Part shown: positions 8,900-28,832 of the stretch, piece after piece
Numbering within the stretch: position 1 is the stretch's first letter
How the letters are laid out: the number at the start of each line of letters is the position of its first letter
Source of the DNA: Fidelibacterota bacterium
Lineage (GTDB): Bacteria; Fidelibacterota; Marinisomatia; SCGC-AAA003-L08; D37C17
Length of the DNA stretch: 64,000 nt
Assembly: GCA_030747125.1 (NCBI GenBank)
Contig: JASLLI010000001.1
Span: forward strand, 1-64,000
Direction of reading: 5' to 3'
Notes under the pieces: generated by a model
What the model was told of the DNA's origin: nothing
Seen by the model: the letters and a program-made list of their open reading frames with translations, nothing else
Databases searched by the model: none
Translations under genes and position numbers: made by a program

Positions 8900-9331
8900 T
8901 TGCAATATTTGTACCAAGACTTTTTACCTATCATATTTTTCACACTGTTAGCTGCGATACTCATTGGCGCACCATTGGGTCTGCAATACCTCCTTTCCCC
9001 CAGAAAAAACAAAGGCGGGGACAAACTTATATCCTATGAATGTGGTGAATTGCCGGAAGGATCTGCCTGGGTTAAATTCAATATTCGCTTCTATGTGATT
9101 GCCCTGGTATTCCTTATTTTTGATGTGGAAGTTGTCTTCTTGTTCCCTTGGGCAGTCGTCTATCAGGAGCTTGGATTGCTTGCTTTTATTGAGGCATTTA
9201 TTTTCGTAATGATTTTAGTCGTAGGCTTTATCTATGTATGGGCTAAGGGAGATTTAGACTGGGTTAAGATGAATGTGCGTTATGGAAAGGGTCGTTATGC
9301 CAACCTACAATCTACAGGGGAAGAAAACTGA
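8900..9331 (+). CDS. nuoA: NADH-quinone oxidoreductase subunit A
   Basis: [40 protein letters not shown]. Confidence 0.95.
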
Positions 9332-9825
9332 TGGATCCTACTTTATTAGGGCAATTTAATAAAGATAATATCATTGTTGAAAAACTTGACACTTTAATCA
9401 ACTGGTCTCGGGCTAATTCTCAATGGTATTTCCAGTTTGGCCTTGCATGCTGTGCAATTGAAATGATGGCAGCTGCTGCTCCCCGCCATGATTTGGAGCG
9501 TTTTGGTGCCATGCCCAGGGCAACTCCCCGCCAGTCAGATGTTATGATAGTCGCAGGAACTGTGACGCTTAAAATGGCAGAACGGGTGAAAAGGCTCTAT
9601 GAGCAGATGTCTGACCCTAAATATGTTATCTCCATGGGCAGCTGTTCTAATAGCGGGGGACCTTACTGGCAGCACGGATATCATGTGCTTAAGGGTGTTG
9701 ATCTCGTAGTGCCTGTAGATGTGTATGTACCTGGCTGCCCTCCAAGACCGGAAGCCTTGTTGCAGGGACTTCTTGAGCTCCAGAAAAAAATTAAAACTGA
9801 AACCCCTCTTCGAAAGCAGGCTTAA
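9331..9825 (+). CDS. nuoB: NADH-quinone oxidoreductase subunit B
   Basis: [57 protein letters not shown]. Confidence 0.97.
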
Positions 9826-10310
9826 TGACCTTTTCAGAAATTACTGATCATATTGAATCTAAAACTTCAGGGAAAATTTCTCTCATTGAAGGAAAAGATG
9901 TAATTCAGGTAACTCCTGATAATTGGTTGGAAGTTGCGACTTTATTAAAGGACGACACCTCGCTTCAGTTTGATTATCTCATGTGTATTTCTTCATATGA
10001 CAAAGGGAACAATAAAACCTATGGAGCCGCCTATAATTTCTTTTCTGTTCAATTAAATCATTATATTGAGGTAAGAGTAGAGGTTGAAGACGGCACATCT
10101 ATTCCTTCAGTCGCAGGATTGTGGAGAGCAGCTGATTGGCATGAGAGAGAAGCGTATGATATGATGGGGTTACACTTTGAAAATCATCCTGATTTAAAAC
10201 GAATTCTCCTCTCTGAAGACTGGGAAGGATATCCGTTAAGAAAAAAATATACAGAGCCGGATTATTATCATGGAATGCCGGTTCCAAAAGACAAATCATA
10301 TTGGGATTAA
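9825..10310 (+). CDS. nuoC: NADH-quinone oxidoreductase subunit C
   Basis: WHEREAYDMMGLHFENHPDLKRILLSEDWEGYPLRKKY. Confidence 0.95.
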   Translation: MTFSEITDHIESKTSGKISLIEGKDVIQVTPDNWLEVATLLKDDTSLQFDYLMCISSYDKGNNKTYGAAYNFFSVQLNHYIEVRVEVEDGTSIPSVAGLWRAADWHEREAYDMMGLHFENHPDLKRILLSEDWEGYPLRKKYTEPDYYHGMPVPKDKSYWD

Positions 10311-11449
10311 TGGAAGAGCAGCTTTTAGATAAGTCGGTTATAGAAACAGGGGAGATGGTTCTCAATATGGGACCACAGCATCCCAGTACGCATGGGGTAT
10401 TGCGGCTCAAGATCCATACAGATGGTGAAGTGGTTTCAAAAATAGAACCTATTATCGGCTATCTTCATCGATGTTTTGAAAAACATTGCGAAAAGTTATC
10501 TTATGAACAAATCGTTCCATTTACAGATCGCTGTGATTATCTCGCATCCATGCACATGGATCATGCCTATTCTCTCGCTGTAGAGAAATTGTTGGATATT
10601 GAGCTGCCTGAACGTGTTGAATATATTCGGGTAATTATATCAGAGTTGCAGAGGATTGCAAGTCACTTGGTTGCAGTTGGTACTTTTGGTTTGGATGTAG
10701 GTGCTATCACTCCATTTACCTGGACAATTCGTGACAGAGAGCGCGTGCTGGACTTGTTTGAAGCGCTTTGTGGTGCCAGACTGCTCTACAATTATATCTG
10801 GCCCGGAGGTGTATCTCATGATCTGCCTCCTAAATTTCTGGAAAGAACTATCGAATTTTTGGAATACTTCGATCCTCAAATTGATGAGCTGAATAATCTG
10901 CTTACTACTAATAAAATTTTTATTGAAAGAACCGCTGATGTAGGGGTGCTGCCTCCGGAGGTTGGAATCAATTATGGTGTTACCGGCCCCAGTTTGAGAG
11001 GAAGCGGAGTAAATTTTGACCTGAGGAAGAACGAGCCATATTCAGTGTATCCAAATTTCGATTTCGACGTGCCGCTTGGTGAGGGCATTATGGGTACGCT
11101 GGGAGATTCCTGGGATCGGTATTATGTGCGTGTATTGGAGATGAGGGAGTCTGCTAAAATTATTCGTCAGGCAATTGAGCAGCTTCCTGATGGGGATGTG
11201 CATGCAGCGCTCCCGAAAAAAGTCAGACCCAATGCAGGTGAGGTCTATGGCAGATATGAGTCCGCAAGAGGTGATGTTGGCTTTTATATAATCAGTAACG
11301 GAAAAAATATTCCCCTTAGAGTGAAAATGCGTTCACCTGCTTTTTGCAATCTGTCCGTTCTGAGTGAGATTTCTGAAGGTTGGATGATTTCAGATATTAT
11401 TGCCATTCTGGGAAGCCTTGATATTGTGTTGGGAGAAATTGACAGATGA
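10310..11449 (+). CDS. nuoD: NADH-quinone oxidoreductase subunit D
   Basis: MVLNMGPQHPSTHGVLRL, GYLHRCFEKHCEKLSYEQIVPFTDRCDYL, C-terminal GEIDR. Start re-called from 10301 (TTG) to ATG 10310, overlapping the nuoC stop. Confidence 0.95.
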   Translation: MEEQLLDKSVIETGEMVLNMGPQHPSTHGVLRLKIHTDGEVVSKIEPIIGYLHRCFEKHCEKLSYEQIVPFTDRCDYLASMHMDHAYSLAVEKLLDIELPERVEYIRVIISELQRIASHLVAVGTFGLDVGAITPFTWTIRDRERVLDLFEALCGARLLYNYIWPGGVSHDLPPKFLERTIEFLEYFDPQIDELNNLLTTNKIFIERTADVGVLPPEVGINYGVTGPSLRGSGVNFDLRKNEPYSVYPNFDFDVPLGEGIMGTLGDSWDRYYVRVLEMRESAKIIRQAIEQLPDGDVHAALPKKVRPNAGEVYGRYESARGDVGFYIISNGKNIPLRVKMRSPAFCNLSVLSEISEGWMISDIIAILGSLDIVLGEIDR

Positions 11450-12546
11450 CTTCCATTTTTGATTCTCTTCAAATTACTTTTTCCGGTCTAAACCTCGATT
11501 TAATGATTGTACTTCCGGCAATCGCTCTTATGGGGGGAACGGTTATTTTTCTGTTGATGGCAGTGAATGCATTAGTTGCCGTTTATTTTGAAAGAAAAGT
11601 ATCTGCATTCATGCAGGACAGACTCGGCCCTATGGAAGTTGGTATTCTTGGCTTTAAGGGTGGTAAACGTTTCTGGGGTGGTATTGGTCAAACCCTTGCA
11701 GATGCTATTAAGTTGTTGGTAAAAGAAGATATTCTGCCTAATGACGCAGATCGTGTGCTGATGATTTTAGCTCCCTTTATTATTTTTACAGGTGCATTTC
11801 TTACATTCATTGGACTCCCCTTTGCTGAAAATCTGGTAATCTCTGATTTTAACATTGGTGTGTTCTATATTGTAGCTATGAGTTCTGTTGGGGTAATCGG
11901 GATTATTCTTGCAGGGTGGTCATCTAATAATAAGTGGTCACTATATGGCGCCATGCGTGCTGCAGCTCAGATCATCAGTTACGAAATTCCCATAGGACTC
12001 TCCTTGTTATTGGTAGTTTTGGTTGCTGGCAGTCTTAATTTTGGAGATATCGTTCAATGGCAGGCTGATAACCGCTGGTTTATTTTTCATAGTCCCTTTT
12101 CTTTTCTTGCCTTCTTTATATTTTTTATTTCTATTGTTGCTGAAACCAACAGGACGCCATTTGATATACCTGAGGCTGAATCAGAATTGGTAGCAGGATG
12201 GATGACGGAATATTCAGGATTTCGCTGGGCATTGTTTTTCCTCAGTGAGTATGCCAATATGTTGATTGTCAGTATAGTTGCCTCCACTGTCTTTTTGGGC
12301 GGATGGCTCTCACCTCTGCAAATGTTTAATGTATTACCGGAAGCATGGTTGTTTCTTGATGGACCCACTTTGGGATTGTTTTGGGTATTCTTAAAAGCAA
12401 TCATACTCATATTTGTCATGATGTGGTTTCGATGGACATTTCCCCGACTGCGTGTTGATCAACTCATGTACCTTTGCTGGAAAGTTTTTATACCCTTTGG
12501 GTTGGCCAACCTGTTTTTCATTAGTTTATGGGAGCTTTTATTCTAA
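11446..12546 (+). CDS. nuoH: NADH-quinone oxidoreductase subunit H
   Basis: ERKVSAFMQDRLGP, ETNRTPFDIPEAESELVAGWMTEYSGFRWALFFLSEYANM. Confidence 0.96.
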   Translation: MTSIFDSLQITFSGLNLDLMIVLPAIALMGGTVIFLLMAVNALVAVYFERKVSAFMQDRLGPMEVGILGFKGGKRFWGGIGQTLADAIKLLVKEDILPNDADRVLMILAPFIIFTGAFLTFIGLPFAENLVISDFNIGVFYIVAMSSVGVIGIILAGWSSNNKWSLYGAMRAAAQIISYEIPIGLSLLLVVLVAGSLNFGDIVQWQADNRWFIFHSPFSFLAFFIFFISIVAETNRTPFDIPEAESELVAGWMTEYSGFRWALFFLSEYANMLIVSIVASTVFLGGWLSPLQMFNVLPEAWLFLDGPTLGLFWVFLKAIILIFVMMWFRWTFPRLRVDQLMYLCWKVFIPFGLANLFFISLWELLF

Positions 12547-13998
12547 ATGAGTGAATATTTTAATAACATATTCTATGGTGTAAAGTCCTTTTTAACCGGG
12601 ATGAAGCTCACGCTGAGCCATTTTAAAAATAAAAAGGAGCTGGTAGCCACGCTTCAGTATCCACATGAGAAATGGCCGGTTCCTGAAAGAAATATCGGCT
12701 TTGATCATGCAGAATATAATTTAATCCGGTCGCGTCTGCATGTTGATATTGATGATTGTATTGCCTGTATGCAATGTGAAAAAGCTTGTCCTGTTGATTG
12801 TATAAAAATTGATTCCATTAAACCTCCCAAAGATAGCGATTTTGATTGTGGTATGACTTCAAATGATACGCAGAAAAAAATGATTGTGAGCCGTTTCACT
12901 ATTGATATGTCTGAGTGTATGTATTGCAATTTATGCGTTTTCCCCTGTCCTGAAGAATGTATCTATATGGTTGGGGGTCCCAATGCATCTAAACATGAAA
13001 TTGACTATGAATTCAGCCAATATGAACGCGACGGAATGATTTTTGAATTTGCCGATGCTACGGATGAACAAATCAAAGAGGCCGGCGGGGAAAAATGGAT
13101 TGAGCAAAGGGATGCCAAAATAAATAAACATGAAGAAGGTATTAAGTTAGAAGGAGAAGTGAAAATTGCCGTTCCTCCTCCTGTTACAACGCCTGTTAAA
13201 GCTGATGAATCAAAACCGGTTTCTAAAACAGCCGTTAAAGATTCAGGTACAGGCGAGTTGGAAATTAAATCGTTTAATAGTATCTCAGATAAAATGTGCA
13301 GAGGTATTGCGAAAAAGACATTCACTGCGGCTAAGAGAGCAGGCAAAGATCAAACTGCCATGCTTTCAGATATAGCCCAGGCGCTTAGTGATATGGGAAA
13401 AATGACGGATGAAATTCAAACTATACTTGATGGACTGCCTGCCCCCGTTGCTGAGCATGTGACCGAACCTGAAATAGAGCAAAAAGAGCCGGAATCAATA
13501 CCAGTTGCAGCTGAATCGCCTACTATTTTTGAAATGGATTTAAAAGATTTAAATGGCATCGAAGATAAAATGGCCAGGGGTATAGCAAAAAAAGCCTTTA
13601 TAGCGGCAAAAAGAGCAGGTGAAGATAAAGTTGAAGCAGTTAAAAATGCCTTAGAAGACGCAGGTAAGCTTGATACTGCTTCTGAGGCATTATTGTCCTC
13701 GTTCACCGCAGCATATTCAGATTCTGAGAATCTTGATCCAAAAGTAGAATCGGCTGGAGATGAAAAACCTGAATCAGGTGAACAATCTCAAGATTTACCT
13801 TTGTTTGATATAAAAGATTTAAATAGCATTGACGAAAAGATGGCTAGAGGTATGGCAAAGAAAATTTATACTGCCGGTAAAAGAGCTGAGAAATCCCGAT
13901 CAGAAGTGATCCGTGATATAAAGGCAGGCTTATCTGATGCAGGAAAATTGGACAGTGCTATTGAAGAATTATTGAATAGATTGGAGACTGGCAGTTAA
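12547..13998 (+). CDS. nuoI: NADH-quinone oxidoreductase subunit I with a ~290-aa repeat-bearing C-terminal extension
   Basis: Two 4Fe-4S motifs CIACMQCEKACP and CMYCNLCVFPCP in the N-terminal ~170 aa, followed by a linker and three repeats. Confidence 0.93.
   Translation: MSEYFNNIFYGVKSFLTGMKLTLSHFKNKKELVATLQYPHEKWPVPERNIGFDHAEYNLIRSRLHVDIDDCIACMQCEKACPVDCIKIDSIKPPKDSDFDCGMTSNDTQKKMIVSRFTIDMSECMYCNLCVFPCPEECIYMVGGPNASKHEIDYEFSQYERDGMIFEFADATDEQIKEAGGEKWIEQRDAKINKHEEGIKLEGEVKIAVPPPVTTPVKADESKPVSKTAVKDSGTGELEIKSFNSISDKMCRGIAKKTFTAAKRAGKDQTAMLSDIAQALSDMGKMTDEIQTILDGLPAPVAEHVTEPEIEQKEPESIPVAAESPTIFEMDLKDLNGIEDKMARGIAKKAFIAAKRAGEDKVEAVKNALEDAGKLDTASEALLSSFTAAYSDSENLDPKVESAGDEKPESGEQSQDLPLFDIKDLNSIDEKMARGMAKKIYTAGKRAEKSRSEVIRDIKAGLSDAGKLDSAIEELLNRLETGS
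13261..13995 (+). repeat. Three divergent copies of a 'D-L-N-x-I-x-x-K-M-x-R-G-I-A-K-K-x-F-x-A-A-K-R-A' module within the NuoI C-terminus
   Basis: Copies begin about 13261, 13531 and 13804: EIKSFNSISDKMCRGIAKKTFTAAKRAG; MDLKDLNGIEDKMARGIAKKAFIAAKRAG; FDIKDLNSIDEKMARGMAKKIYTAGKRAE. Confidence 0.9.
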
Positions 13999-14483
13999 TG
14001 GGTGAAAATATTTTTCTTATGATTGCCGGCTTGGTAATTGCCTCAGCCTTTTGGGTGGTTTTTTCACCCAATCTTATTCACTCTGCAGTTTCTCTTTTAT
14101 TCACTTTGTTTGGTACTGCAGGACTATATGTATTTCTTTATGCAGATTTTATTGCTGCCACTCAGGTGGTTATTTATGTTGGGGGTATTTTAGTTTTGAT
14201 CATTTTTGGAGTCATGTTAACCAATCGAATTGATACACCAAGTATAGCGGCCGGCAGTGCAAACCAATTTATCGGTGGAATTGGGGCATTTGCCATTTTT
14301 GTAATGCAAATAGGAGTAATTTTTAATACTCCCTGGCAAATTGGCAACAATCAATCAAGAGAAACTACTGTTGATACTATTGGCAAACTGCTTCTGAATG
14401 AATATCTTTTGCCTTTTGAGATAGTGTCAATTTTATTATTAGCTGCTCTGATGGGGGCAGCATTGTTATCCAGGAGAAATTAA
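13998..14483 (+). CDS. nuoJ: NADH-quinone oxidoreductase subunit J
   Basis: LIHSAVSLLFTLFGTAGLYVFLYADFIAATQVVIYVGGILVLIIFGVML. Confidence 0.95.
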   Translation: MGENIFLMIAGLVIASAFWVVFSPNLIHSAVSLLFTLFGTAGLYVFLYADFIAATQVVIYVGGILVLIIFGVMLTNRIDTPSIAAGSANQFIGGIGAFAIFVMQIGVIFNTPWQIGNNQSRETTVDTIGKLLLNEYLLPFEIVSILLLAALMGAALLSRRN

Positions 14484-14791
14484 TGGATTCTCTAAATTCA
14501 TATCTTGTAATCGCTGCAGTCTTGTTTGCCCTTGGTATTTATGGAGTCATTACCCGTAAAAATGCAGTGGCTATTTTAATGGGGATTGAACTCATTTTAA
14601 ATTCAGCAAATATTAATTTTATTGCATTTAATAGATTCGGCGGTATGGAAACACTGGATGGGCATGTTTTCAGTATTTTTGTAATTGTACTGGCTGCTGC
14701 AGAGGCGGCGGTTGCTCTTGCAATTGTTATCAATTTGTTTAAAAATATCGGTTCTGTCAATGTAGATGATGCCGATCTGCTTAAAGGATAG
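14483..14791 (+). CDS. nuoK: NADH-quinone oxidoreductase subunit K
   Basis: GVITRKNAVAILMGIELILNSANINFIAF, VLAAAEAAVALAIVI. Confidence 0.96.
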   Translation: MDSLNSYLVIAAVLFALGIYGVITRKNAVAILMGIELILNSANINFIAFNRFGGMETLDGHVFSIFVIVLAAAEAAVALAIVINLFKNIGSVNVDDADLLKG

Positions 14792-14793
14792 CT

Positions 14794-16854
14794 TTGGAAT
14801 CTAATCTCAATCTACTGGCATTACTAAATTTATTTCTACCATTAGTCTCTTTTGCTATTCTTATTTTTTTTGGTAAGAAAATTGGGGAGTCAGCCCACTG
14901 GGTTGCTCTAACCCTTATTGGCATTACCTTAGTAATTGCAATGTTTTTCTTCTCTACTGTTTTTTCACCTCATGAAGGTCCTATTCTTCAATCCTCAATT
15001 CAATGGTTTACTACCGGAAGTTTCACCCTTTATTTAGGGTTTTTAATCAATAATGTGGCGGCCATTATGTTGTTGGTGGTTGCCCTGATTTCCTTTCTGG
15101 TGCATTTATATTCAGTAGAATATATGAAGGGTGATCCCCGCTATTCTCGCTATTTTGCCTATCTTGGGATTTTTACATTTTCAATGAATGGTATCGTCTT
15201 GGCTGACAGCTTGGTGATGATGTATGTCTTTTGGGAATTGGTCGGGCTCAGTTCATATCTGCTCATTGGTTTTTGGTTTGAAAAAGATTCAGCTGCAAAC
15301 GCTTGTAAAAAAGCATTTCTCACCAATAGAGTGGGGGATATTGGTATGTTTATCGGCATGATGATTCTCTTTTTTACCGTAGGGACATTTCAATTGGATG
15401 GATTAGCTGATGGCGTGAAAGACGGGGCATTTTCAGGCAATATGCAACTTCTCACCATTGCAGGAATATTAGTATTTATGGGCGCTGTAGGAAAATCTGC
15501 ACAATTTCCCCTGCATATATGGTTGCCTGATGCTATGGAAGGTCCAACTCCCGTATCTGCGCTCATCCACGCAGCTACCATGGTTGCAGCAGGGGTATAT
15601 ATGGTAGTTAGAATTTTCCCGATTCTTACCCCGGGTGCTCTTGAATTTATTGCAGTTGTCGGAGCAATAACCGCACTTATGGCTGCCATTATTGCAATTA
15701 CCCAAAATGATATTAAAAGAGTGTTGGCATACTCTACTGTGAGTCAGTTAGGATATATGATCATGGCATTGGGAGTGGGTGCGTATCAGGCAGGGTTTTT
15801 CCATCTCACTACTCATGCCATGTTTAAAGCCTGTCTCTTTCTTTGCAGTGGGTCTGTTATTCATGCAATGCATCATGCACTTCATGAATTGCATGACCAT
15901 GATACTGACCCTCAGGACATGCGTTTTATGGGTGGGCTCAAAAGTAAAATGCCCATTACCTACTGGAGTATGCTCATAGCTACCCTTGCAATTGCAGGGG
16001 TACCTTTCTTCTCTGGATTTCTCTCAAAAGATGCTATTCTTGCAGGGACACTCTCATATTACCATTCTCATCATGGTTGGACTATTTTTCTACCCTTAGC
16101 CGGATTCGGTGCTGCTGCCATTACTGCTTTTTATATGTTCCGTCTGATTTTTATGACTTTTTACGGCAAACCCTACGAACAAAAAATTCATGCTCATATA
16201 CATGAATCTCCTGTAAAAATGACATTCCCCTTAATTTTACTTTCCGTATTTAGTTTGGCATTAATTTTCACGCTCCCCAATACCGTGAATCCTGTTGATA
16301 GTCATGGCTGGTTTACCCATGCAGTGCCGATGGTTCAAAATAATGCAGGTTTGGATATGCACGCTGTTGAAGAAGGAATTCATCATGCACATTATACAGC
16401 CATGACCTTATCTCTCATAGTTGCAGGACTGGGTATTTTTGTTTCTGTTTTATTTTATCTGCTTCAAAAAATTGATGCTTCTAAAATTTCTTCTTTTATG
16501 AATAAATTCAAATTTTATGATATTTCATTTAATAAATTCTACATTGATGAAATTTATAACTTTTTACTCTATAAACCATTCCTTGGGCTGTCTTGGATTG
16601 CATCAAAGTTGGATTGGGATTTATACGACCAGAAATTTATTGATGGCTGGGGGTGGATAACTCTGAAACTGTCTGATAAATCCGGAGATGCCGATTATAA
16701 TTGGTTAGACCAAAAAATAGTGGATGGTTTTGGTAATCTCACCAACTACTTCGGAAAAAATTTAAAGTTATCACAGAATGGTGTTGTGCAAAATTATCTT
16801 TTAGGTGGAATGCTTGGTGTGGTTCTGTTAATCATTATTTTTCAACAATTTTAA
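14794..16854 (+). CDS. nuoL: NADH-quinone oxidoreductase subunit L
   Basis: FWELVGLSSYLLIGFW, PLHIWLPDAMEGPTPVSALIHAATMVAAGVYMV; TTG start. Confidence 0.96.
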   Translation: MESNLNLLALLNLFLPLVSFAILIFFGKKIGESAHWVALTLIGITLVIAMFFFSTVFSPHEGPILQSSIQWFTTGSFTLYLGFLINNVAAIMLLVVALISFLVHLYSVEYMKGDPRYSRYFAYLGIFTFSMNGIVLADSLVMMYVFWELVGLSSYLLIGFWFEKDSAANACKKAFLTNRVGDIGMFIGMMILFFTVGTFQLDGLADGVKDGAFSGNMQLLTIAGILVFMGAVGKSAQFPLHIWLPDAMEGPTPVSALIHAATMVAAGVYMVVRIFPILTPGALEFIAVVGAITALMAAIIAITQNDIKRVLAYSTVSQLGYMIMALGVGAYQAGFFHLTTHAMFKACLFLCSGSVIHAMHHALHELHDHDTDPQDMRFMGGLKSKMPITYWSMLIATLAIAGVPFFSGFLSKDAILAGTLSYYHSHHGWTIFLPLAGFGAAAITAFYMFRLIFMTFYGKPYEQKIHAHIHESPVKMTFPLILLSVFSLALIFTLPNTVNPVDSHGWFTHAVPMVQNNAGLDMHAVEEGIHHAHYTAMTLSLIVAGLGIFVSVLFYLLQKIDASKISSFMNKFKFYDISFNKFYIDEIYNFLLYKPFLGLSWIASKLDWDLYDQKFIDGWGWITLKLSDKSGDADYNWLDQKIVDGFGNLTNYFGKNLKLSQNGVVQNYLLGGMLGVVLLIIIFQQF

Positions 16855-16867
16855 TTAAGAGGAAACT

Positions 16868-18439
16868 ATGGAGTCTTCAATACTCACCTTTTTAATTTTC
16901 CTTCCTGTCGCCGGGGCTGCACTTATGCTGCCTTTTTCAAAATTATACGGGAAAGAAAACACCCATTATTTTAAATGGATTGCACTGATTACCACTGGAA
17001 TCCAATTTGCTTTAGCGCTAATCCTTTACCGAAAATTTGATCCGGCTCTGTCAGTTACTGAATCACCTTTCACCGTCCAAATTGATTGGATAAAACATTT
17101 TAATATTCAGTACTTTCTCGGTGTAGATGGTCTCAGTATGCCTATGGTACTTTTAACTGCATTACTGTCTTTTATCTGTATCCTTGCCAGCTGGAAAATT
17201 GAAAAACAGGCATTAGGATATTTTTCACTTTTTCTTTTATTAGATGCTGGAATGATGGGTGTCTTTCTTGCATTGGACTTTTTCCTCTTTTATGTATTTT
17301 GGGAAGTGATGTTGCTGCCTATGTATTTCCTTATCGGCATTTGGGGTGGCCCTCAGCGAATGTATGCTGCTATTAAATTCTTCCTGTATACTTTATTTGG
17401 ATCCGTGTTTATGCTTTTGGCAATGTTGGCATTATATTACTATTCAGATCCTCATACATTTAACCTCATCACTCTCATTCAAACTGCGTCATCAATTGAT
17501 GCATCAATCTGGGGCTTTTCAGTTAAATATTTAATTTGGATCGGACTTTTTATCGGATTTGCTATAAAAGTACCAATCTTCCCCTTTCATACCTGGCTTC
17601 CATTGGCGCATGTGGAGGCACCAACAGCAATTTCTGTTATACTTGCGGGGGTCTTGCTGAAAATGGGTACTTATGGACTTCTAAGAATTAGTTATCCCCT
17701 TCTTCCCGGTGAAGTTGTAAACTTTTCCTATATACTTGCTGTACTTGGTGTCATAAATATTATTTGGGGTGCTGTGAATGCTATCGCTCAAATAGACATG
17801 AAAAAAATGGTAGCATACTCTTCTGTAAGTCACATGGGCTATGTACTGTTGGGTATGGCTGCAGCAATAAGTGAATCTTCAGCCGGCGCACAGGCAGGAA
17901 TGAATGGCGCTGTTATGCAGATGTTTAACCATGGTACTATTACTGCTATGCTCTTCCTGTTGGTCGGTATGGTGTACGACAGAGCACACCACCGCTGGAT
18001 TATTTTCCCAAGAGATTATGAAAAGCCAGAGTTAGCCGGGCAGCCTGGTTTTGGGGGTATAGGTGCACAGGTACCCATCTATACAGGCTTTGTAGCATTG
18101 GCTTTTTTTGCAGGATTAGGACTTCCTGCCTTATCAGGGTTTATCAGTGAAGCAATGTGTTTTATTGGCGGCTTCAGCGCATTTAGAACTCTTACTATTA
18201 TTGGTACTCTTGGTATATTATTGAATGCCATTTATTTTCTCCGTGCCTACCAGAGAATATTCTTAGGTCCCCTGAATGAAACCTATAAAGATTTAACTGA
18301 TATAAATAAAATTGAGCTGGCAACTATTGTACCCTTAGCTATAATTACATTAGTGCTTGGTGTATATCCTGCCCCACTATTGAATATGATTGCACCGGCA
18401 ATGGATGGAATCATTCAAATAGTACAATCTGCTCTGTAA
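16868..18439 (+). CDS. nuoM: NADH-quinone oxidoreductase subunit M
   Basis: FYVFWEVMLLPMYFLIGIWGG, FPFHTWLPLAHVEAPTAISVILAGVLLKMGTYG. Confidence 0.96.
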   Translation: MESSILTFLIFLPVAGAALMLPFSKLYGKENTHYFKWIALITTGIQFALALILYRKFDPALSVTESPFTVQIDWIKHFNIQYFLGVDGLSMPMVLLTALLSFICILASWKIEKQALGYFSLFLLLDAGMMGVFLALDFFLFYVFWEVMLLPMYFLIGIWGGPQRMYAAIKFFLYTLFGSVFMLLAMLALYYYSDPHTFNLITLIQTASSIDASIWGFSVKYLIWIGLFIGFAIKVPIFPFHTWLPLAHVEAPTAISVILAGVLLKMGTYGLLRISYPLLPGEVVNFSYILAVLGVINIIWGAVNAIAQIDMKKMVAYSSVSHMGYVLLGMAAAISESSAGAQAGMNGAVMQMFNHGTITAMLFLLVGMVYDRAHHRWIIFPRDYEKPELAGQPGFGGIGAQVPIYTGFVALAFFAGLGLPALSGFISEAMCFIGGFSAFRTLTIIGTLGILLNAIYFLRAYQRIFLGPLNETYKDLTDINKIELATIVPLAIITLVLGVYPAPLLNMIAPAMDGIIQIVQSAL

Positions 18440-18452
18440 ATAATCTTCATCC

Positions 18453-19919
18453 ATGTCTAATCTGTATAGCTTAAATTATTATATTCCTGAACTAATCATC
18501 ATTTGTTCTATTCTACTAGTAATTGTACTGGATGTAATCCCTTCTCTTAGTCGTTATACTTTTTATATTGCACTATCGTCTATTGTATTGGCTGGCGGTG
18601 TGCTCTGGAATAATTATGGAGTAACAGATTCTTTATTCATGGGGATGATTAGCATTGATCCTTTTTCTCATTTCTTTAAGTTTATATTCCTTCTAACTAC
18701 TTTTTCCATTATTCTTGTTTCCCGATATGAAAAACTGTTAGATAGAACCTATGCTGCAGAATACAATGCCATGCTCCTCATTGTACTGTTGGGATTATTT
18801 CTCATGGCGTCATCTACCAATTTAATCATGATTTATCTCTCTATTGAATTGGTGAGTATTCCTTCTTACATTTTGGCGGGTATGTTGAAAACAGACAAGG
18901 AATCAAATGAAGCTTCCTTAAAGTATGTGATCTTTGGATCTTTTGCATCCGGGTTAATGTTGTTTGGCTTAAGTATTTTATACGGAATAACCGGAACTAC
19001 AGATATTATGGGTATGAATACCGCTCTTACAGGGCTTGAATACCCTCTCACAATCTATTTACCAATTATTTTGTTATTGGTTGGCTTCGGTTATAAAATA
19101 TCAATGGTTCCCTTCCATTTTTGGACACCAGATGTTTACGAGGGAGCGCCTACACCCATCACTGCCTTTCTATCTGTAGCGCCAAAAGCTGCAGGAATCG
19201 CTATATTGATCAGAATTTTCTATACCATGTTCACGCAGGATGGCAGCGTATCTCAAACCCTTCCATTAGCTGAGATTAACTGGCCTGCCATTATTGCTGT
19301 AGGCTCTGCAATTACCATGACCTTAGGCAATGTTTTAGCAGTTCAGCAACAAGATGTAAAACGCATGCTGGCCTATTCCAGTATATCCCATGTTGGGTTT
19401 ATGTTAATGGCATTTGCCATATTAGGTCCTGAAGCAGTACGGGCAGTGATGCTGTATTTATTCATATACTTGTTCATGAATTTATCTGCCTTTTATATGA
19501 CTATTTATGCCTCCAATAATTTTAATGCCCACCATGTAGAAGATTGGAAGGGAATAGGAAAGAAAAACCCTGTTTTGGCTGCTTTCATGACGCTCAGTCT
19601 ATTATCTCTTACAGGGTTACCTCCAACAGCAGGATTTGTAGGAAAGTTTTATGTTTTTGCAGAATTGTTTAAACATCAACAGTTCTACTGGCTTGCTATT
19701 GTTGCTATTTTGAATTCAGTAATCTCTCTTTACTATTATTTCAGCATCGTTAAATCTATGTATTTAGTAGAGTCTGAAGATGTTGATGAGGTAGTGGAGG
19801 CACATCCCGTTATTAAATGGTCAATTATCATTTTTTCAGCACAAAATATCCTTTTCTTCCTTTATTGGGAACCCTTGTTTGGATTAATTGAAAAATCCAT
19901 CAGTCTCTGGGGCGGATAA
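18453..19919 (+). CDS. nuoN: NADH-quinone oxidoreductase subunit N
   Basis: YLSIELVSIPSYILAG, PFHFWTPDVYEGAPTPITAFLSVAPKAAG. Confidence 0.95.
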   Translation: MSNLYSLNYYIPELIIICSILLVIVLDVIPSLSRYTFYIALSSIVLAGGVLWNNYGVTDSLFMGMISIDPFSHFFKFIFLLTTFSIILVSRYEKLLDRTYAAEYNAMLLIVLLGLFLMASSTNLIMIYLSIELVSIPSYILAGMLKTDKESNEASLKYVIFGSFASGLMLFGLSILYGITGTTDIMGMNTALTGLEYPLTIYLPIILLLVGFGYKISMVPFHFWTPDVYEGAPTPITAFLSVAPKAAGIAILIRIFYTMFTQDGSVSQTLPLAEINWPAIIAVGSAITMTLGNVLAVQQQDVKRMLAYSSISHVGFMLMAFAILGPEAVRAVMLYLFIYLFMNLSAFYMTIYASNNFNAHHVEDWKGIGKKNPVLAAFMTLSLLSLTGLPPTAGFVGKFYVFAELFKHQQFYWLAIVAILNSVISLYYYFSIVKSMYLVESEDVDEVVEAHPVIKWSIIIFSAQNILFFLYWEPLFGLIEKSISLWGG

Positions 19920-19926
19920 TCATTTC

Positions 19927-20403
19927 ATGAGTTCCAAGACTGTAAAAGATACCTATGTGATCATGCATGAATTGGTACTCCCCAATGACACAAATTTATT
20001 AGGGAATGTTTTAGGTGGCAGGGTTATGCACCTCATGGACATGTGTGCTGCAATGTCAGCATTTAAGCATGCACGATCAGCTGTTGTGACTGCCTCAGTT
20101 GATCAATTAGATTTTCTTGCTCCGGCCAAAAAAGGGGATATCATGATATTAAAATCCTCAGTAAATTTCACCGGTCGCTCTTCCATGGAAGTAGGTGTTA
20201 GAATCGAATCTGAAAACCCAAAAACCGGAAATATTCATCATACTGCCTCCGCTTACCTAACCTTTGTATCTATAAACGATAATGGCAATCCTCAAAAAGT
20301 AGAAGAAATTACAGCTGAAACCAATGCAGAATTGCGTCGGTATGCCGAAGGGAAAGCCAGGTATATAGATCGTAAAAACAGAAAAAAGAGCAAAAAGCAA
20401 TAA
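19927..20403 (+). CDS. Acyl-CoA thioesterase, hotdog fold (YciA-like)
   Basis: HELVLPNDTNLLGNVLGGRVMHLMDMCAAMSAFKHARSAVVTASVDQLDFLAPAKKGD. Start re-called to ATG 19927, after the nuoN stop. Confidence 0.88.
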   Translation: MSSKTVKDTYVIMHELVLPNDTNLLGNVLGGRVMHLMDMCAAMSAFKHARSAVVTASVDQLDFLAPAKKGDIMILKSSVNFTGRSSMEVGVRIESENPKTGNIHHTASAYLTFVSINDNGNPQKVEEITAETNAELRRYAEGKARYIDRKNRKKSKKQ

Positions 20404-21759
20404 TTGAATATCCATATTAAAAAGGGTCATAATTTAAAAATTGCCGGTTCTCCATCGAAGGATATGTCTGTTGTATCTGTGGGTGAAACGATAAAAATTC
20501 ATCCTTTAGAGTTTCCTGGTGTTAAGCCCAAACTACTGGTTAAGTTAAACGAATCTGTTATAAAAGGCCAGCCTGTTTTTCTGGATAAAAATCACCCTGA
20601 AATACAATTCACTGCTCCGGTTTCTGGTGCTGTAATAGATATAACCTTTGGTGAACGACGCCGTCTCGAAGCTGTTACTCTTAAAGTAGAAAAGAATAAT
20701 GAGGTAAACACCTTCACATCATATTCTGCAGAGGACATTTCAACATTAGAAAGGGGCACCGTAATAAATGCCCTCTGTAAATCTGGACTTTGGCCCTGTC
20801 TGCGGCAAAGACCTTTTTCCAAAATTGCCAATCCGGAAAAGGCTCCCAAAGTGATTTTTATATCCACGCAGTCCTCGGCTCCTTTTGCACCTCAGTTGGA
20901 TGTCATAATAAAGAGCATGGATACTGAGTCCTTGCAGGCAGGTATTTCCGTACTAAATACACTTTCAGCCGGGAAAGTACATTTGGTAACTCCAAAGGAG
21001 AGTTCACAGGAACTATTTAATCACCTTAAAGGTGTAGAGCTTCATACTTTTTCAGGACCTCATCCTGCCGGAAATGTTGGCGTTCATATTTCTAAAATTG
21101 ATCCCATTGCACATAAGGATGATGTGGTTTGGTATCTGTCACTTCAGGATGTTTACAGATTTGGTGCCTTCTTTTTACAGGGTAAGGTGGATTTTACCAA
21201 AATTATTACTGTAGGAGGTACTGAGGCTAAATCCTCTCAACATTTTTCCCTCACACAGGGAACTATCATTTCAGAATTTGCAAAGCCTGCTTCTAAATCC
21301 CGGGAGATAAGGTATGTATCAGGGGATGTACTCTCCGGAAGGATTGTAGAAAAAGACACTGCAGTAGGGTTTTATGATGAAACCGTCACTCTTCTGCCAG
21401 ATTCCTTTCAAAGAGAATTCATGGGTTGGATTGCACCCGGGTTTAATAAATACTCCCTTTCTAAAACCTTTATATCTAAATTATTGCCAAAAAAGGATAT
21501 TGCATTTCATACAGCAATGAAAGGTAATGAGCGTGCCATTGTACCCATTGGCGCAATTGAAAAAGTGGTACCTCTACATGTATTGCCTACTTTATTAATA
21601 AAATCAATCATCGCTAAAGATATTGAAACGATGGAGCAGCTGGGTATTTATGAATGCAGTCCAGAAGATTTTGCTCTCTGTTCATTTGTAGATGCTTCAA
21701 AAATGGATATCTCTGGTATTATTCAGGATGGACTTGATTATGCAGAAGTTGAGGGGTAG
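20404..21759 (+). CDS. nqrA: Na+-translocating NADH:quinone reductase subunit A
   Basis: IKKGHNLKIAGSP start, GLWPCLRQRPFSKIANPEKAPKVIFISTQSSAPFAPQLD. Confidence 0.95.
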   Translation: MNIHIKKGHNLKIAGSPSKDMSVVSVGETIKIHPLEFPGVKPKLLVKLNESVIKGQPVFLDKNHPEIQFTAPVSGAVIDITFGERRRLEAVTLKVEKNNEVNTFTSYSAEDISTLERGTVINALCKSGLWPCLRQRPFSKIANPEKAPKVIFISTQSSAPFAPQLDVIIKSMDTESLQAGISVLNTLSAGKVHLVTPKESSQELFNHLKGVELHTFSGPHPAGNVGVHISKIDPIAHKDDVVWYLSLQDVYRFGAFFLQGKVDFTKIITVGGTEAKSSQHFSLTQGTIISEFAKPASKSREIRYVSGDVLSGRIVEKDTAVGFYDETVTLLPDSFQREFMGWIAPGFNKYSLSKTFISKLLPKKDIAFHTAMKGNERAIVPIGAIEKVVPLHVLPTLLIKSIIAKDIETMEQLGIYECSPEDFALCSFVDASKMDISGIIQDGLDYAEVEG

Positions 21760-21760
21760 G

Positions 21761-22936
21761 ATGAAAATATTACGCAATATTCTCGATAAAATCGAACCTC
21801 ACTTTTTAGGGAACGGTAAATATCATAAATTATATCCATTATATGAAATGGCAGATACTTTTTTGTTTACTCCCTCTGATAAAACCAAAAATGGTCCACA
21901 TGTAAGAGATGCAATAGATATCAAAAGGGTGATGTCTTTTGTGGTAATTGCCATGCTTCCTGCATTACTTTTTGGAATTTATAATATTGGCAGGCAAATT
22001 GATTCTTCAGGAGATATTTTTACCACATTTTTAGCAGGCTTACCTGTGGTGCTACCCATAATTTTGGTTTCCTATACTGTTGGCGGCTTTTGGGAAATGC
22101 TGTTTGCAGTGACTCGTAAGCATGAAATAAATGAAGGGTTTCTGGTAACCGGTATGCTCATTCCCTTGGTTATGCCTCCAACCATACCCTTGTGGATGGT
22201 GGCAGTTGCAACTTCGTTTGGAGTGGTAATCGGGAAAGAAATATTCGGCGGTACGGGATATAATATTTTTAATCCTGCACTGGTTGCCCGTGCATTTATT
22301 TTCTTTGCCTATCCTGGAGCCATTTCAGGTGATGCTGTTTGGGCAATCGCCAAAAATAGAGAAGGTTTTATTGATGGAATATCTCAAGCTACTCCATTGC
22401 TGCAGGCTTCTGCAGAACAAGGAGTGCAGGCATTAGAATTGATTAAGGGACAATTTTCATGGTGGGACATGTTTTATGGTTTCATTCCCGGATCGATAGG
22501 AGAGACATCAACCTTGGCGATTATAATAGGAGGGTTGTTTTTGCTTTTTACAGGAATCGGAAATTGGCGAATCATGGCAGGAACTCTCCTTGGAATGGTG
22601 CTCACTGCTAAACTCACCAATATATTTGCCGTAGCAGTTTCAAGTGAAAACCCTATGTTGTATCTTCCTGCTGAATATCACTTTGTTATGGGAGGCTTCG
22701 CCTTTGGAATGGTCTTTATGGCTACAGATCCTGTATCTGCATCACAAACAGATAAGGGCAGGTGGATGTATGGTATCCTTATTGGATTCATGTGTGTTAT
22801 CATCCGCTCAATTAATCCAGCCTACCCTGAAGGGATGATGCTGGCTATTTTATTCGCTAATGCGTTTGCACCGCTGATTGATTATTTTGTTATGAAATCC
22901 CATATTAAACAAAGGGTGAAGCGTTTTGCAGCATAA
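21761..22936 (+). CDS. nqrB: Na+-translocating NADH:quinone reductase subunit B
   Basis: FFAYPGAISGDAVW, DGISQATPLLQ (flavinylation region), GSIGETSTLAIIIGG, MATDPVSASQTDKGRWMYG. Start re-called from 21692 to ATG 21761. Confidence 0.95.
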   Translation: MKILRNILDKIEPHFLGNGKYHKLYPLYEMADTFLFTPSDKTKNGPHVRDAIDIKRVMSFVVIAMLPALLFGIYNIGRQIDSSGDIFTTFLAGLPVVLPIILVSYTVGGFWEMLFAVTRKHEINEGFLVTGMLIPLVMPPTIPLWMVAVATSFGVVIGKEIFGGTGYNIFNPALVARAFIFFAYPGAISGDAVWAIAKNREGFIDGISQATPLLQASAEQGVQALELIKGQFSWWDMFYGFIPGSIGETSTLAIIIGGLFLLFTGIGNWRIMAGTLLGMVLTAKLTNIFAVAVSSENPMLYLPAEYHFVMGGFAFGMVFMATDPVSASQTDKGRWMYGILIGFMCVIIRSINPAYPEGMMLAILFANAFAPLIDYFVMKSHIKQRVKRFAA

Positions 22937-23642
22937 CAATCTCTACACCTTTAAGTTTATTGCTATGATAACCATCGTGGCAAGCTTGCTTCTCACCTTG
23001 GCAGCAACTCAGCTAAAAGAACGGCAGGATTTCAATATTGAAGTGGATAAAAAGAAAAATATCCTGAAATCTATCGGCTTAGATGTGGCAGCCATGCAGG
23101 CAAATACCATCATTGAAGAGTACAAAAACAAAATTCAGGATGTGGTGCTTAAACAAAATGGAGATAGAGTTAACCATATTTCATCAGAAGATCTTGAATC
23201 TGTTGAAAATAAATCAACAGGACAACTTTCCTATTTCTATGAAAATCATGAATATCTCCCTGCTTATCTGGCATCTGAACCACAGGCATTTATTTTTCCT
23301 GTGTCAGGAAAAGGTTTGTGGAGTACCTTATATGGTTATTTAGCTTTGGATATGGATTTGAATACAGTAAAAGGTATTACTTTTTATAAACATGGCGAAA
23401 CTCCCGGACTGGGCGGAGAAATTGAAAAGAAATGGTTCCAGGATAATTTTATCGGAAAGAAAATTTTTGATAATTCGGGTAATTTAAAATCAATCACTGT
23501 AGTCAAAGGGAAAGCTGTAGATGATAAACATGAGGTAGATGGTATTAGTGGTGCTACTATAACTTCACGAGGCGTTACCGACTTTTTAAAAAGAGATCTT
23601 CAACGCTATTTTACCTTTTTAACCATTCACCGGAGTAACTAA
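22926..23642 (+). CDS. nqrC: Na+-translocating NADH:quinone reductase subunit C
   Basis: [40 protein letters not shown] (FMN attachment motif SGATx(T/S)). Confidence 0.95.
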
Positions 23643-24268
23643 TGGATAAGATCTCAAAAGCCATTATTTCTGATCCATTAGTTGATAACAATCCTATAAC
23701 CAAACAAATATTGGGAATTTGCTCGGCACTTGCTGTAACGGTAAAAATGGAACAGGCCGTTGTGATGACATTTGCCCTAACCTTCGTATTGGTTTCCTCA
23801 AATATTATCATCTCTCTCCTGAGAAAAGGAATTCCGGGAAAAGTAAGAATCATTGTCCAACTAACCGTAATTGCTTCATTGGTGATTCTGATTGATCAGG
23901 TATTAAAGGCCTATCTCTATGACATTAGCAAGCAACTATCCGTTTTTGTGGGACTAATCATCACCAACTGTATTATCATGGGTAGAGCTGAGGCCTTTGC
24001 CATGCAGAATAATTTTAAGGAATCTTTATATGATGGTTTTGGCAATTCCTTCGGATACGGATTAATTCTCATCATAGTCTCCACCTTCAGAGAATTGTTT
24101 GGTAGTGGAACTTTGTTTAACTACCAAATCATCCCAACATGGATGTATTTAGAACAGGGCGGATGGTATGTGAATAATGGTCTTATGTTATTAGCGCCTG
24201 GAGCTTTTATTATTCTTGGCCTGATAATTTGGGTGCAAAGAACTTATACACATTTCATAGAAGATTAA
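23642..24268 (+). CDS. nqrD: Na+-translocating NADH:quinone reductase subunit D
   Basis: [42 protein letters not shown]. Confidence 0.95.
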
Positions 24269-24269
24269 A

Positions 24270-24896
24270 ATGGAATTACTTGAACATTATTTGAGTCTGG
24301 CTACAAAATCAATTTTTATTGAAAATATCCTTCTTTCCTATTTTCTTGGAATGTGCTCCTTTTTAGCAATATCTAAAAAAATCGAGGCATCCATCGGTTT
24401 AGGTTTTGCAGTTATTTTTGTAAGTGGAGTCACTGTACCTCTAAATTGGGTGATTAAAGAATTTCTTCTCATAGAGGGCGCGTTAAGTTGGGTAGGCATT
24501 CCTGCATTAACAACAGTGGACTTGAGTTTCCTTTCTTTTATTACCTATATTGCAACCATTGCAGCTATGGTGCAATTAGTTGAAATGTTATTAGATAAAT
24601 TCAGTCCGGCTCTTTACAACTCCCTTGGAATATTTCTACCTCTGATCGCAGTTAACTGCTCCATTTTAGGTGCTTCTCTGTTCATGGCGGAACGAGGGTA
24701 TACCTTTGGAGAATCAGCGGTGTTTGGGGTGAGCTCAGGTGCAGGATTTGCTTTGGCTATCGTTTCAATGGCGGCGATTAGATTTAAACTTAAGTATTCA
24801 AATATTCCAGATGGACTCAAGGGATTGGGAATTACCATGATTTTAACTGGTTTGCTCTCAATGGCTTACTTATCATTTTCCGGAATAAACCTATAA
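24270..24896 (+). CDS. nqrE: Na+-translocating NADH:quinone reductase subunit E
   Basis: [51 protein letters not shown]. Confidence 0.95.
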
Positions 24897-24900
24897 TTTC

Positions 24901-26124
24901 ATGCTTATAACACTCGCCGGTACCATCGTCTTTACCACAGTTATTTTACTGCTGGTAAGTATACTTACCTTTGCAGAATCTAAATTACTCCCTCAGGGGG
25001 CAGTAAAAATTCTTATCAATGAAAATGAGGATAAATCTCCAAATGTGAATCCTGGACCTACCCTCCTGAATGCATTGTCAAATGAGGGTATATTTATTCC
25101 ATCTGCTTGTGGTGGTGGAGGAACCTGTGCACAATGTAAATGTCAGGTGCATGCCGGTGGAGGACAAATCCTCCCCACAGAATTAAATCATATTTCCAGA
25201 AAAGACGCTAAAGACGACTGGCGTCTTGCCTGCCAGGTAAAGGTGCGTGAGGAAATGGCAATTACCGTACCTGACGAGATATTCAGTATTCAAAAATGGG
25301 AGTGTACGGTAAAATCAAATAATAATGTAGCAACCTTCATTAAAGAATTAGTTTTAGAACTCCCAAAAGGAGAAAATCTTAACTTTAAAGCAGGTGGATT
25401 TATACAGATTGATATTCCTGAGTATAGTTTGGATTTCAATGAATTTGACATACAGGACGAGTATCATGAAGATTGGGACAAGTATAAAATCTGGGATTTA
25501 AAAGGGAGCAACAGCGAGCCTCAGTTTAGGGCCTATTCCATGGCAAATCATCCTGCAGAGGGAAATATGGTCATGCTGAATGTGCGGATTGCAACACCAC
25601 CGCCAACCCATTGGAATGATGTGCCACCGGGAATTGCCTCATCTTACATATTTAATTTAAAACCAGGCGATAAAGTTACCATTTCAGGGCCTTACGGTGA
25701 ATTTTTCATCAAGGACACAGAAAGAGAAATGGTGTATATTGGAGGTGGGGCAGGCATGGCTCCCATGCGTTCTCATCTTTTCCATTTATTTCACACTTTA
25801 AATACTAAAAGAAAAGTCAGTTTCTGGTATGGTGCAAGATCTATGCGGGAAATGTTTTACGATGAGGATTTCAGGCAAATAAGAGAAAAATTTCCCAACT
25901 TCTCATACAATGTGGCTCTTTCTGATCCCCTTCCCGAAGATAATTGGGAGGGACATACAGGATTTATTCATCAGATCCTCTATGATAATTATCTGGAAAA
26001 TCATGATGACCCCACCGAAATTGAATATTATATGTGTGGTCCTCCCATGATGATTGAAGCGGCTGAAAATATGCTTTATAATCTTGGCGTTGAACCTGAA
26101 ATGGTTGCCTTCGATAAGTTTTAA
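24901..26124 (+). CDS. nqrF: Na+-translocating NADH:quinone reductase subunit F
   Basis: [22 protein letters not shown] (2Fe-2S), FAD/NAD domains ([25 protein letters not shown]). Confidence 0.96.
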
Positions 26125-26158
26125 CCCTCTGGGCAGCTCCCCCATTCAATTAAAATAT

Positions 26159-27166
26159 ATGTTTTTCAGGATATTTCCTGCAGTACTGGGTATTCTGCTT
26201 ATTTCAAATTGCAGTAATCAGTCTGTTATAACTCTCAATGGAGAGACGATGGGAACCACCTACTCTATTTCTATTGTGAAAAATTCACAGACTGCCATGA
26301 ATAAAGTAAAATTTCAACATGAGATTGATTCGCTGCTTTTTGTTTTCAATTCCATATTTTCTACTTATTCTTCTTCAAGTGAAATAAGTAAAATAAATGC
26401 AGATACCAGCTGGTTTCCCCTTTCCGTTTCAGGAGAGTTTTATCAATTGCTGGAAGAATCTCAACAAATGTATTATGAAACTGGTGGGAAATTTGATATA
26501 ACTATTAAACCACTCATATCGCTCTGGAGTTTTGATTCAGAGTTTTCTTCTGAGAAAATCCCCATGGAAAATGCTGTTAATGAAGCTCTGACGCAAGTTG
26601 GTATGGATCAAATTATGTTGGATAAACACACCGTCCTAAAAAATAATCCTAATGTCCAATTCGATATGAATGCAATCGCTAAAGGTAGAGGAGTTGATAA
26701 AATAGCACATTTCCTTAAATCAGCAGGCTTTCAGCATTTTATAGTGGAAATCGGGGGAGAGGTTTATGCATCAGGTGTCAATAAAAATAATTCATTCTGG
26801 AAAATAGGTATAAAACATCCGGAAGAGTTCTCAAAGGACATTACTGCTATTGCTGCCTTTTCAAATTCTGGAATGGCTACATCAGGTACGTACCAACATT
26901 TTTTTAACTGGGAGGGGAAAGACTATTCCCATATACTTGACCCAAGGACAGGTTGGCCAGTGGAACATGATCTCATCAGCGCTACAGTAATTGCAGAAAC
27001 CTGCGCCAAAGCAGATGCAATTGCCACCGCCTTAATAGTAATGGGGTTTGAAAATGCTCTTCATTGGATTGAGCAAACTGAAGGAGTAGAATGTTATTTA
27101 ATCCGCAGGGATAAAGAATCAAGGGTATTGACTGCGGTACATTCTAAAAACTTTCCGCTACATTGA
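26159..27166 (+). CDS. apbE: FAD:protein FMN transferase (ApbE), probable lipoprotein
   Basis: GETMGTTYSISIV, FDMNAIAKGRGVDKIA, FIVEIGGEVYASG, YSHILDPRTGWPV. Start re-called from 26054 to ATG 26159, which gives a lipoprotein-like N-terminus MFFRIFPAVLGILLISNC. Confidence 0.93.
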   Translation: MFFRIFPAVLGILLISNCSNQSVITLNGETMGTTYSISIVKNSQTAMNKVKFQHEIDSLLFVFNSIFSTYSSSSEISKINADTSWFPLSVSGEFYQLLEESQQMYYETGGKFDITIKPLISLWSFDSEFSSEKIPMENAVNEALTQVGMDQIMLDKHTVLKNNPNVQFDMNAIAKGRGVDKIAHFLKSAGFQHFIVEIGGEVYASGVNKNNSFWKIGIKHPEEFSKDITAIAAFSNSGMATSGTYQHFFNWEGKDYSHILDPRTGWPVEHDLISATVIAETCAKADAIATALIVMGFENALHWIEQTEGVECYLIRRDKESRVLTAVHSKNFPLH

Positions 27167-27331
27167 AGGTTGTTCACCAGAATGGGTTGTACATTGCTCT
27201 CGTTCTTTAAAAGTGCAATTACATGATTCACCGCAGGACCCTTTTAATGCCCTGTTTGAGAAAAATGTCCCCAATCCCAATAAAAATATGAGGATGGAAA
27301 AAATGAATATCGTTAATAATACTGTAATCAT
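27158..27331 (-). CDS. nqrM: NqrM-like small membrane Cys-motif protein (57 aa), absent from the ORF track
   Basis: Manual minus-strand translation: MITVLLTIFIFSILIFLLGLGTFFSNRALKGSCGESCNCTFKEREQCTTHSGEQPSM*. One TM helix followed by LKGSCGxxCxC...C, immediately after apbE. Confidence 0.75.
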   Translation of the reverse strand: MITVLLTIFIFSILIFLLGLGTFFSNRALKGSCGESCNCTFKEREQCTTHSGEQPSM

Positions 27332-27410
27332 AAATCGGGTAAATTTACCATGTTAAACAGGCACTTTAAAAGCCATCTGCCAAAACTTAAAACCAAATAA
27401 TCTTTATTTT

Positions 27411-28820: not shown

Positions 28821-28832
28821 AAAGCTAAAATC

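Follow-up and report, generated by a model that had tools for sequence, protein, structure and literature searches.

Tandem four-helix modules on NuoI of a complex I lacking NuoEFG in marine Neomarinimicrobiota: a possible tethered docking arm for an electron carrier

Introduction

In the cyanobacterial complex NDH-1, ferredoxin binds a positive pocket formed by NdhI (the counterpart of NuoI) and NdhH; NdhV and NdhO assist, the latter being located on NdhJ, the counterpart of NuoC (PMC7021789). In Escherichia coli, the C-terminal residues 139-180 of NuoI contact NuoG, NuoE, and NuoF (PMC8357420). For the atypical complex I of the Campylobacterota, the presumed electron source is ferredoxin or flavodoxin in place of NADH, a point for which Weerakoon and Olson 2008 is cited (PMC11238625). 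Complex I without NuoEFG (EFG-less complex I) is considered an ancestral enzyme with a wide distribution, and outside the cyanobacteria its route of electron delivery has been a question of long standing.

The stretch of DNA analysed here (“the window”, 64,000 nucleotides) lies on contig C19 of the MAG G000 (1.7 Mb, 96% complete), whose best relatives are Neomarinimicrobiota. It encodes an EFG-less complex I in which NuoI has a long C-terminal tail of three repeated modules. The survey of relatives covered 245 genomes of the phylum, and the module profile was searched within the phylum, so that the distributions given below describe the phylum and claim neither restriction to it nor uniqueness.

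An 11-subunit complex I with an extended NuoI

The complex I of the window has 11 subunits (nuoABCDHIJKLMN) and no nuoEFG, which makes it a member of the EFG-less type. The relevant features are as follows.

8900..12546, + strand: nuoA, nuoB, nuoC, nuoD, and nuoH (ORFs; NuoC_fam TIGR01961 over its cut-off)
12547..13998, + strand: nuoI with C-terminal extension, 483 aa (open ORF; TIGR01971 match)
12547..13080, + strand: NuoI ferredoxin-like core, aa 1-178 (Pfam Fer4 and NCBIfam matches stop by about aa 176)
12757..12792, + strand: first [4Fe-4S] motif, C71-x2-C-x2-C-x3-C-P (C71-C81; from the sequence, invariant in alignment A3)
12916..12951, + strand: second [4Fe-4S] motif, C124-x2-C-x2-C-x3-C-P (C124-C134; from the sequence, cysteines invariant in A3)
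13998..19919, + strand: nuoJ, nuoK, nuoL, nuoM, and nuoN (ORFs; order conserved in relatives)
20404..26124, + strand: nqrABCDEF (NqrA, NqrD, and NqrF over NCBIfam cut-offs; tblastn synteny)

The nuoI gene lies between nuoH and nuoJ with its reading frame intact. This placement, the NuoI-type core, and the presence of both CxxCxxCxxxCP motifs identify its product as NuoI. The NCBIfam NuoI model TIGR01971 matches only aa 18-144 (E=5e-19), and its 68 bits lie below the curated cut-off of 113 bits. In G148, a relative with two complex I operons, the module-free EFG-less NuoI also falls below the cut-off (52 bits), and the canonical paralogue passes it with 140 bits. These low scores of EFG-less NuoI in both the window and G148 point to a divergent EFG-less subfamily that has kept its NuoI identity.

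Structure and conservation of the tail

Beyond the core, the tail consists of alternating linkers and modules.

13081..13260, + strand: linker 1, aa 179-238 (helical start, pLDDT about 30 at aa 203-235; pN/pS 0.52)
13261..13437, + strand: module 1, aa 239-297 (profile E=1.7e-26; folded alone pLDDT 92.8, four helices)
13438..13536, + strand: linker 2, aa 298-330, acidic, Pro-rich (net charge -7; pLDDT about 32; pN/pS 0.66)
13537..13704, + strand: module 2, aa 331-386 (profile E=3.1e-21; pLDDT 93-96)
13705..13806, + strand: linker 3, aa 387-420, acidic (net charge -7; pLDDT mostly 30-38; pN/pS 0.73)
13807..13983, + strand: module 3, aa 421-479 (profile E=1.6e-24; pLDDT 93-95)

At the DNA level, the repeats appear as 95-nt units at 13259, 13535, and 13805, with 63-72% identity to the first copy, and by the profile boundaries the modules are spaced by 92 and 90 aa. 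A module is 59 aa long (56 aa in copy 2), has an acidic second half, and follows the consensus DIKxLNxIxDKMxRGxAKKAFxAAKRAGK-x8-IxxALxxAGKLTxExxxxLxxL. The per-copy domain E-values of 1e-23 to 1e-28, together with the retention of the tail in about 30 genomes of the order, show that the repeats are not due to chance.

No domain match was found in Pfam or NCBIfam for the modules or for the whole protein beyond the core, with Pfam tried on each of 63 module copies. The profile search of the PDB gave no credible match, its top results being designed helical repeats in which no individual stretch was significant. Fold comparison with structures of the PDB and of a viral library was equally without a credible match. 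Pfam showed no NdhS/NdhV/NdhO-type homology (whole protein and modules) and no Flavodoxin_1 domain in the tail. A peripheral-subunit-binding or helix-hairpin-helix domain was likewise not matched there in Pfam or the PDB, and tblastn against plasmids returned no match.

An earlier note, made from the letters alone, had described a ferredoxin-like core ending by about aa 170, then a long extension with repeats starting at 13261, 13531, and 13804 that resembled no module it could recognise. The core end near aa 178, profile boundaries within 6 nt of those starts, and the failure of Pfam, NCBIfam, and PDB sequence and fold searches to return a known domain all agree with that description. The consensus it gave missed the acidic second half, the module being longer (59/56 aa).

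When a single module was folded by AlphaFold with 34 homologous copies, four helices were predicted (residues 2-7, 11-26, 31-44, and 50-58) with a pLDDT of 92.8 and a pTM of 0.75. In the full-length NuoI prediction (pTM 0.29), pLDDT is about 88-96 in the three modules and drops to about 30 at most positions of the linkers. In other words, the tail is predicted to be a series of folded beads on a disordered string. The modules are not packed on the core in this model of NuoI alone; the core itself was poorly modelled (22 sequences), and no claim about module packing is therefore made.

Among five congeners, with synonymous sites near saturation, pN/pS is 0.14, 0.15, and 0.24 in the modules, 0.07 in the core, and 0.52, 0.66, and 0.73 in the linkers. 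Purifying selection is acting on the modules and not on the linkers. The conserved basic residues R14 (62/63 module copies), K18 (63/63), and R26 (61/63) share one arc of helix 2, and with K11 and K25 they form the basic face of each module. The basic half of a module has a net charge of +2 to +8 and the other half is acidic, leaving the whole module at -1 to +4.

Distribution of the tail among relatives

The closest NuoI proteins in the window's order (families f1, f3, f4, and f5) are about 300-590 aa long when module-bearing, and those of most sister families of the class are about 195 aa, ending at the core end. Complete tails have 1, 2, 3, or 5 modules. One genome of the window's order, G182, has lost the modules and has a NuoI of 207 aa, and many EFG-less complexes of the phylum are without them. 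Because the tail recurs across independent MAGs of the order, it is not an assembly artefact. The earlier note had asked whether close relatives have a NuoI of standard length, which would have pointed to an assembly fusion; they share the tail, and such an origin is ruled out. Two loci of family f30 (L052, L053) encode a NuoI with an unrelated C-terminal extension of about 120-170 aa, of low complexity and rich in Ala, Glu, and Ser, with no modules.

The canonical complex I as a control within the same genomes

No NuoF was found in G000, and given its 96% completeness an alternative electron donor is needed. NuoF is also absent from nearly all genomes of f1 and f4, and is present in f5. At first sight f5 contradicts the reading that modules replace NuoF only where a genome has none, a conflict resolved by the position of the f5 NuoF in a second, canonical operon. 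In f5 and several other genomes, nuoABCDHIJKLMN is followed back to back by a canonical operon with nuoE, nuoF, and nuoG; the products of these three genes were identified by NCBIfam in G148, and NuoF was found in the other two-operon genomes. In all five of the examined two-operon genomes with modules on complex I (G191, G192, G193, G183, and G076), the two operons share a contig, and every module sits on NuoI or NuoC of the EFG-less operon and none on the canonical subunits. In four two-operon genomes (G148, G062, G070, and G087), they are on neither complex I. The modules are thus a feature of the EFG-less complex I, which in some genomes does without them. A congener, G155, was left out of this control: its canonical nuo contig matches a contig of the f16 MAG G077 at 99.6% identity, and a near-identical counterpart of the module-bearing contig of G155 is likewise present in G077, so that the two bins are mixed by cross-binning of two lineages (L004/L007, L143/L144). 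In the canonical operons of G087:C22 and G076:C5 (L163, L165), two ORFs encode NuoL, and a further small ORF separates them.

By tblastn, the window shares with G192 and G193 the order proline-dehydrogenase-like gene, EFG-less nuo operon, thioesterase, X, nrnA, dcd, ispH, and pdxS/T. In G192 and G193, X is the canonical 14-subunit nuo operon, with NhaD-like and UspA-like genes between nuoM and nuoN. In the window (19888-29234), X is nqrA-F and apbE, followed by the same NhaD-like and UspA-like genes, left behind. The window lineage thus appears to have swapped its NADH-oxidising complex I for Nqr in place and to have kept the EFG-less complex. With nqr standing where the canonical complex I was, NADH is provided with a separate entry, and the survival of the EFG-less complex through this exchange is strong circumstantial evidence that it has another donor.

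Two suggestions of the earlier note bear on this locus. A link between the modules and the absence of nuoEFG holds at the level of the operon, the modules being only on EFG-less operons, and not at the level of the genome, since f5 genomes hold NuoF in their second operon. Its idea of an Nqr partner for the tail gained no positive support; the module-bearing operon of f5 adjoins a canonical complex I where the window has nqr.

Flavodoxins in place of the modules

In G168, a MAG of the same family as the window, the tail of NuoI consists of two tandem flavodoxin domains (PF00258, E=1.4e-43) and has no modules (L027, on G168:C33, and L044). This NuoI-flavodoxin fusion rests on one MAG. The fusion gene lies between nuoH and nuoJ, and its continuous frame, with nuoJ and nuoK directly after it, argues against a misjoin. 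In the tree of NuoI cores, G168 is sister to the three-module G167 (support 95/87) inside the module-bearing clade, which indicates that the flavodoxins replaced the modules or took over their place.

The restriction of the modules to EFG-less operons would also fit a tail that covers the apex exposed when NuoEFG was lost, protecting, stabilising, or gating it with no carrier bound, and the C-terminal extension of E. coli NuoI does contact and stabilise the NuoEFG interface (PMC8357420). On the contrary, copy numbers from 1 to 5 and linkers that are long, disordered, and fast-evolving look like a tether and not like a fitted cap, and both short NuoC modules and the whole flavodoxins of G168 serve in the same context. 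We consider such a structural replacement very unlikely.

Other carriers of the module

The profile search also found half-modules outside NuoI. The core motif of this short form, [LI]-N-x-[IL]-x-D-[KR]-x2-R-[GAS]-x-[AVI]-K-x7-[KR], is common to both forms; the companion helix precedes the motif in the short form and comes after it in the long form. Short modules are carried at the N-terminus of NuoC in sister families (f16, f18, and f20), at the C-terminus of NuoI in another family, f21 (G001), and at the C-terminal end of a protein resembling SRPBCC proteins; one such protein matched PF10604 (E=2.4e-6), and for another Pfam returned nothing. In a close scan of 32 genomes, in which matches not individually fetched were assigned by ORF length and position, the carriers were NuoI, NuoC, the SRPBCC-like protein, and one Cys-rich protein in G156. 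The latter (L097 3537-4235, G156:C82) is a zinc-ribbon-like protein of 233 aa with no Pfam match and one C-terminal long module. The SRPBCC-like proteins (L085, L087-L096) have 2-4 short modules; some start with a hydrophobic stretch and others with a small beta-type domain.

A basic helix and this zinc-ribbon-like carrier could be taken as signs of a module that binds nucleic acid or the ribosome and plays no part in electron transfer. The searches matched it to no family of nucleic-acid-binding proteins, and the carriers are otherwise complex I subunits and the SRPBCC protein, so that this explanation is hardly credible. The conserved basic arc on helix 2, together with the transmembrane-looking stretch at the start of some SRPBCC carriers, might instead suggest a basic amphipathic helix that anchors the arm to the membrane, through phospholipid head groups, or to another anionic surface. 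We hold this to be highly unlikely: the module is predicted to be a compact four-helix domain and not a lone amphipathic helix, complex I is already bound to the membrane, and its canonical paralogues manage without modules.

The SRPBCC-like gene adjoins genes for Rieske protein, cytochrome b, and heme A synthase in G140 and G024 (L095, L096), and these modules beside bc-complex genes in two genomes suggest a partner of the module that is more than an electron donor. Whether a genome has modules on complex I is independent of whether it has them on the SRPBCC protein. G062, G070, and G148 have modules on the SRPBCC-like protein and none on NuoC or NuoI, and in the window's order no module-bearing SRPBCC protein was found, only a stand-alone relative, of about 60 aa, of its N-terminal domain. 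Such stand-alone proteins of 58-73 aa (L137 1165-1344, on G000:C97, and L132-L136) are related to the N-terminal domain of the L095 protein, and L134 adjoins a cytochrome oxidase subunit II-like gene. Pairing of modules between complex I and the SRPBCC protein is unsupported, since the two carriers occur independently.

Multivalent scaffolds are typically built of multi-copy modules on flexible linkers. The main rival explanation is that the modules bind a common partner other than a carrier, which could be the oxoacid oxidoreductase, a structural hub, or a complex of the bc type, and that they thereby bring complex I and the SRPBCC protein together in a supercomplex or other respiratory assembly. 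The architecture of the tail and the presence of modules on both complex I subunits and the SRPBCC-like protein, beside Rieske and cytochrome b genes, speak for such a scaffold. The mutual independence of the two kinds of carrier, and the lack of a module-bearing SRPBCC protein in the window's order, speak against it, and it leaves unexplained why canonical complex I is spared and why a flavodoxin stands in G168. We judge it unlikely.

A possible docking arm for an electron carrier

We think it somewhat probable that the tail serves as a tether on which an acidic one-electron carrier docks. Electrons would enter the 11-subunit complex I directly at the NuoI cluster N6a. The three four-helix modules would hang on disordered linkers from the C-terminus of NuoI, and their conserved basic face would hold the carrier near N6a and raise its local concentration. 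In the window's organism, ferredoxin would be reduced by 2-oxoacid:ferredoxin oxidoreductase and then captured by the modules. Binding of ferredoxin or flavodoxin by the modules, the reversibility of this docking, and the direction from ferredoxin to quinone are all inferred; that the EFG-less complex takes electrons from ferredoxin or flavodoxin and not from NADH is supported indirectly.

Several observations are consistent with a docking arm. NuoI and NuoC flank the entry site in the counterparts of this enzyme, and tails from either would thus hang around the vacant entry site. A subunit of the oxoacid:ferredoxin oxidoreductase is encoded in G000 and in 38/41 genomes of the order. A ferredoxin-like protein of G000 (L002), for which the NCBIfam FdxA models stay below cut-off, has a net charge of -20, and a flavodoxin of the family has one of -25. 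No flavodoxin was detected in the window's own genus, and flavodoxin is therefore unsupported as the donor there and ferredoxin is probably the carrier; flavodoxin is present in other f1 genera, and such relatives could use it. Docking of an alternative electron donor, one of several roles proposed in the earlier note, is the best supported option, given that modules are only on the EFG-less operon and that flavodoxins hold the same place in G168.

Several findings speak against docking: whole modules are near neutral, only their first half being basic; the modules on the SRPBCC-like protein, which has no known electron role, are left unexplained; G182 has lost the modules, and many EFG-less complexes of the phylum, those of G148, G062, G070, and G087 among them, are without any. 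The single MAG behind the flavodoxin fusion, the lack of a detectable flavodoxin in the window's genus, and the unpacked modules of the full-length model count on the same side.

More speculatively, and with less confidence than even a cautious “probably” would imply, the new domain family may be a transplantable ferredoxin/flavodoxin-capture module that was attached separately to NuoI and NuoC and replaced once by tethered flavodoxins, giving a complex I with a built-in electron shuttle. A conserved tethered module, canonical paralogues that serve as a control within single genomes, and a natural flavodoxin-NuoI fusion that names a class of donor make the question of electron delivery testable with short recombinant proteins. 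For marine Neomarinimicrobiota, the locus points to a split between NADH entry via Nqr and another entry, probably of ferredoxin, via complex I.

Comparison with known systems

The class of enzyme is known. The databases and papers searched contained neither the family of covalently attached modules nor its transfer from subunit to subunit, nor a fusion of NuoI with flavodoxin. The 2-oxoacid dehydrogenases have lipoyl- and peripheral-subunit-binding domains on Ala/Pro linkers, small beads that carry or dock a redox partner. They offer a works-like analogy to the modules only, with no Pfam match between them. The extension of E. coli NuoI (PMC8357420) is at the same end of the protein as the tail of the window. 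However, it is an ordered segment of about 40 residues with almost no secondary structure that holds NuoEFG, whereas the tail has about 300 residues and no NuoEFG to hold.

In the Campylobacterota, the donor is a free protein, and the available parts of the source describe no NuoI-flavodoxin fusion or modules, unlike what is seen here. For the EFG-less complex I of a strict anaerobe (nuoA-D, H-N), ferredoxin is likewise the proposed donor and extra docking subunits are not excluded; unlike the window, no modules on a NuoI tail are described in the portion of that report available to us.

The closest parallel is the cyanobacterial and plastid NDH-1, a ferredoxin:plastoquinone oxidoreductase (PMC7021789), which is also a complex I without NuoEFG. 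It takes ferredoxin directly at the NuoI homologue, and lineage-specific parts beside NdhI help docking. Those extras have no detectable sequence relation to the modules. In NDH-1 they are separate small subunits, NdhS (SH3-like), NdhV, and NdhO, whereas in the Neomarinimicrobiota described here they are predicted four-helix repeats joined covalently to NuoI or NuoC.
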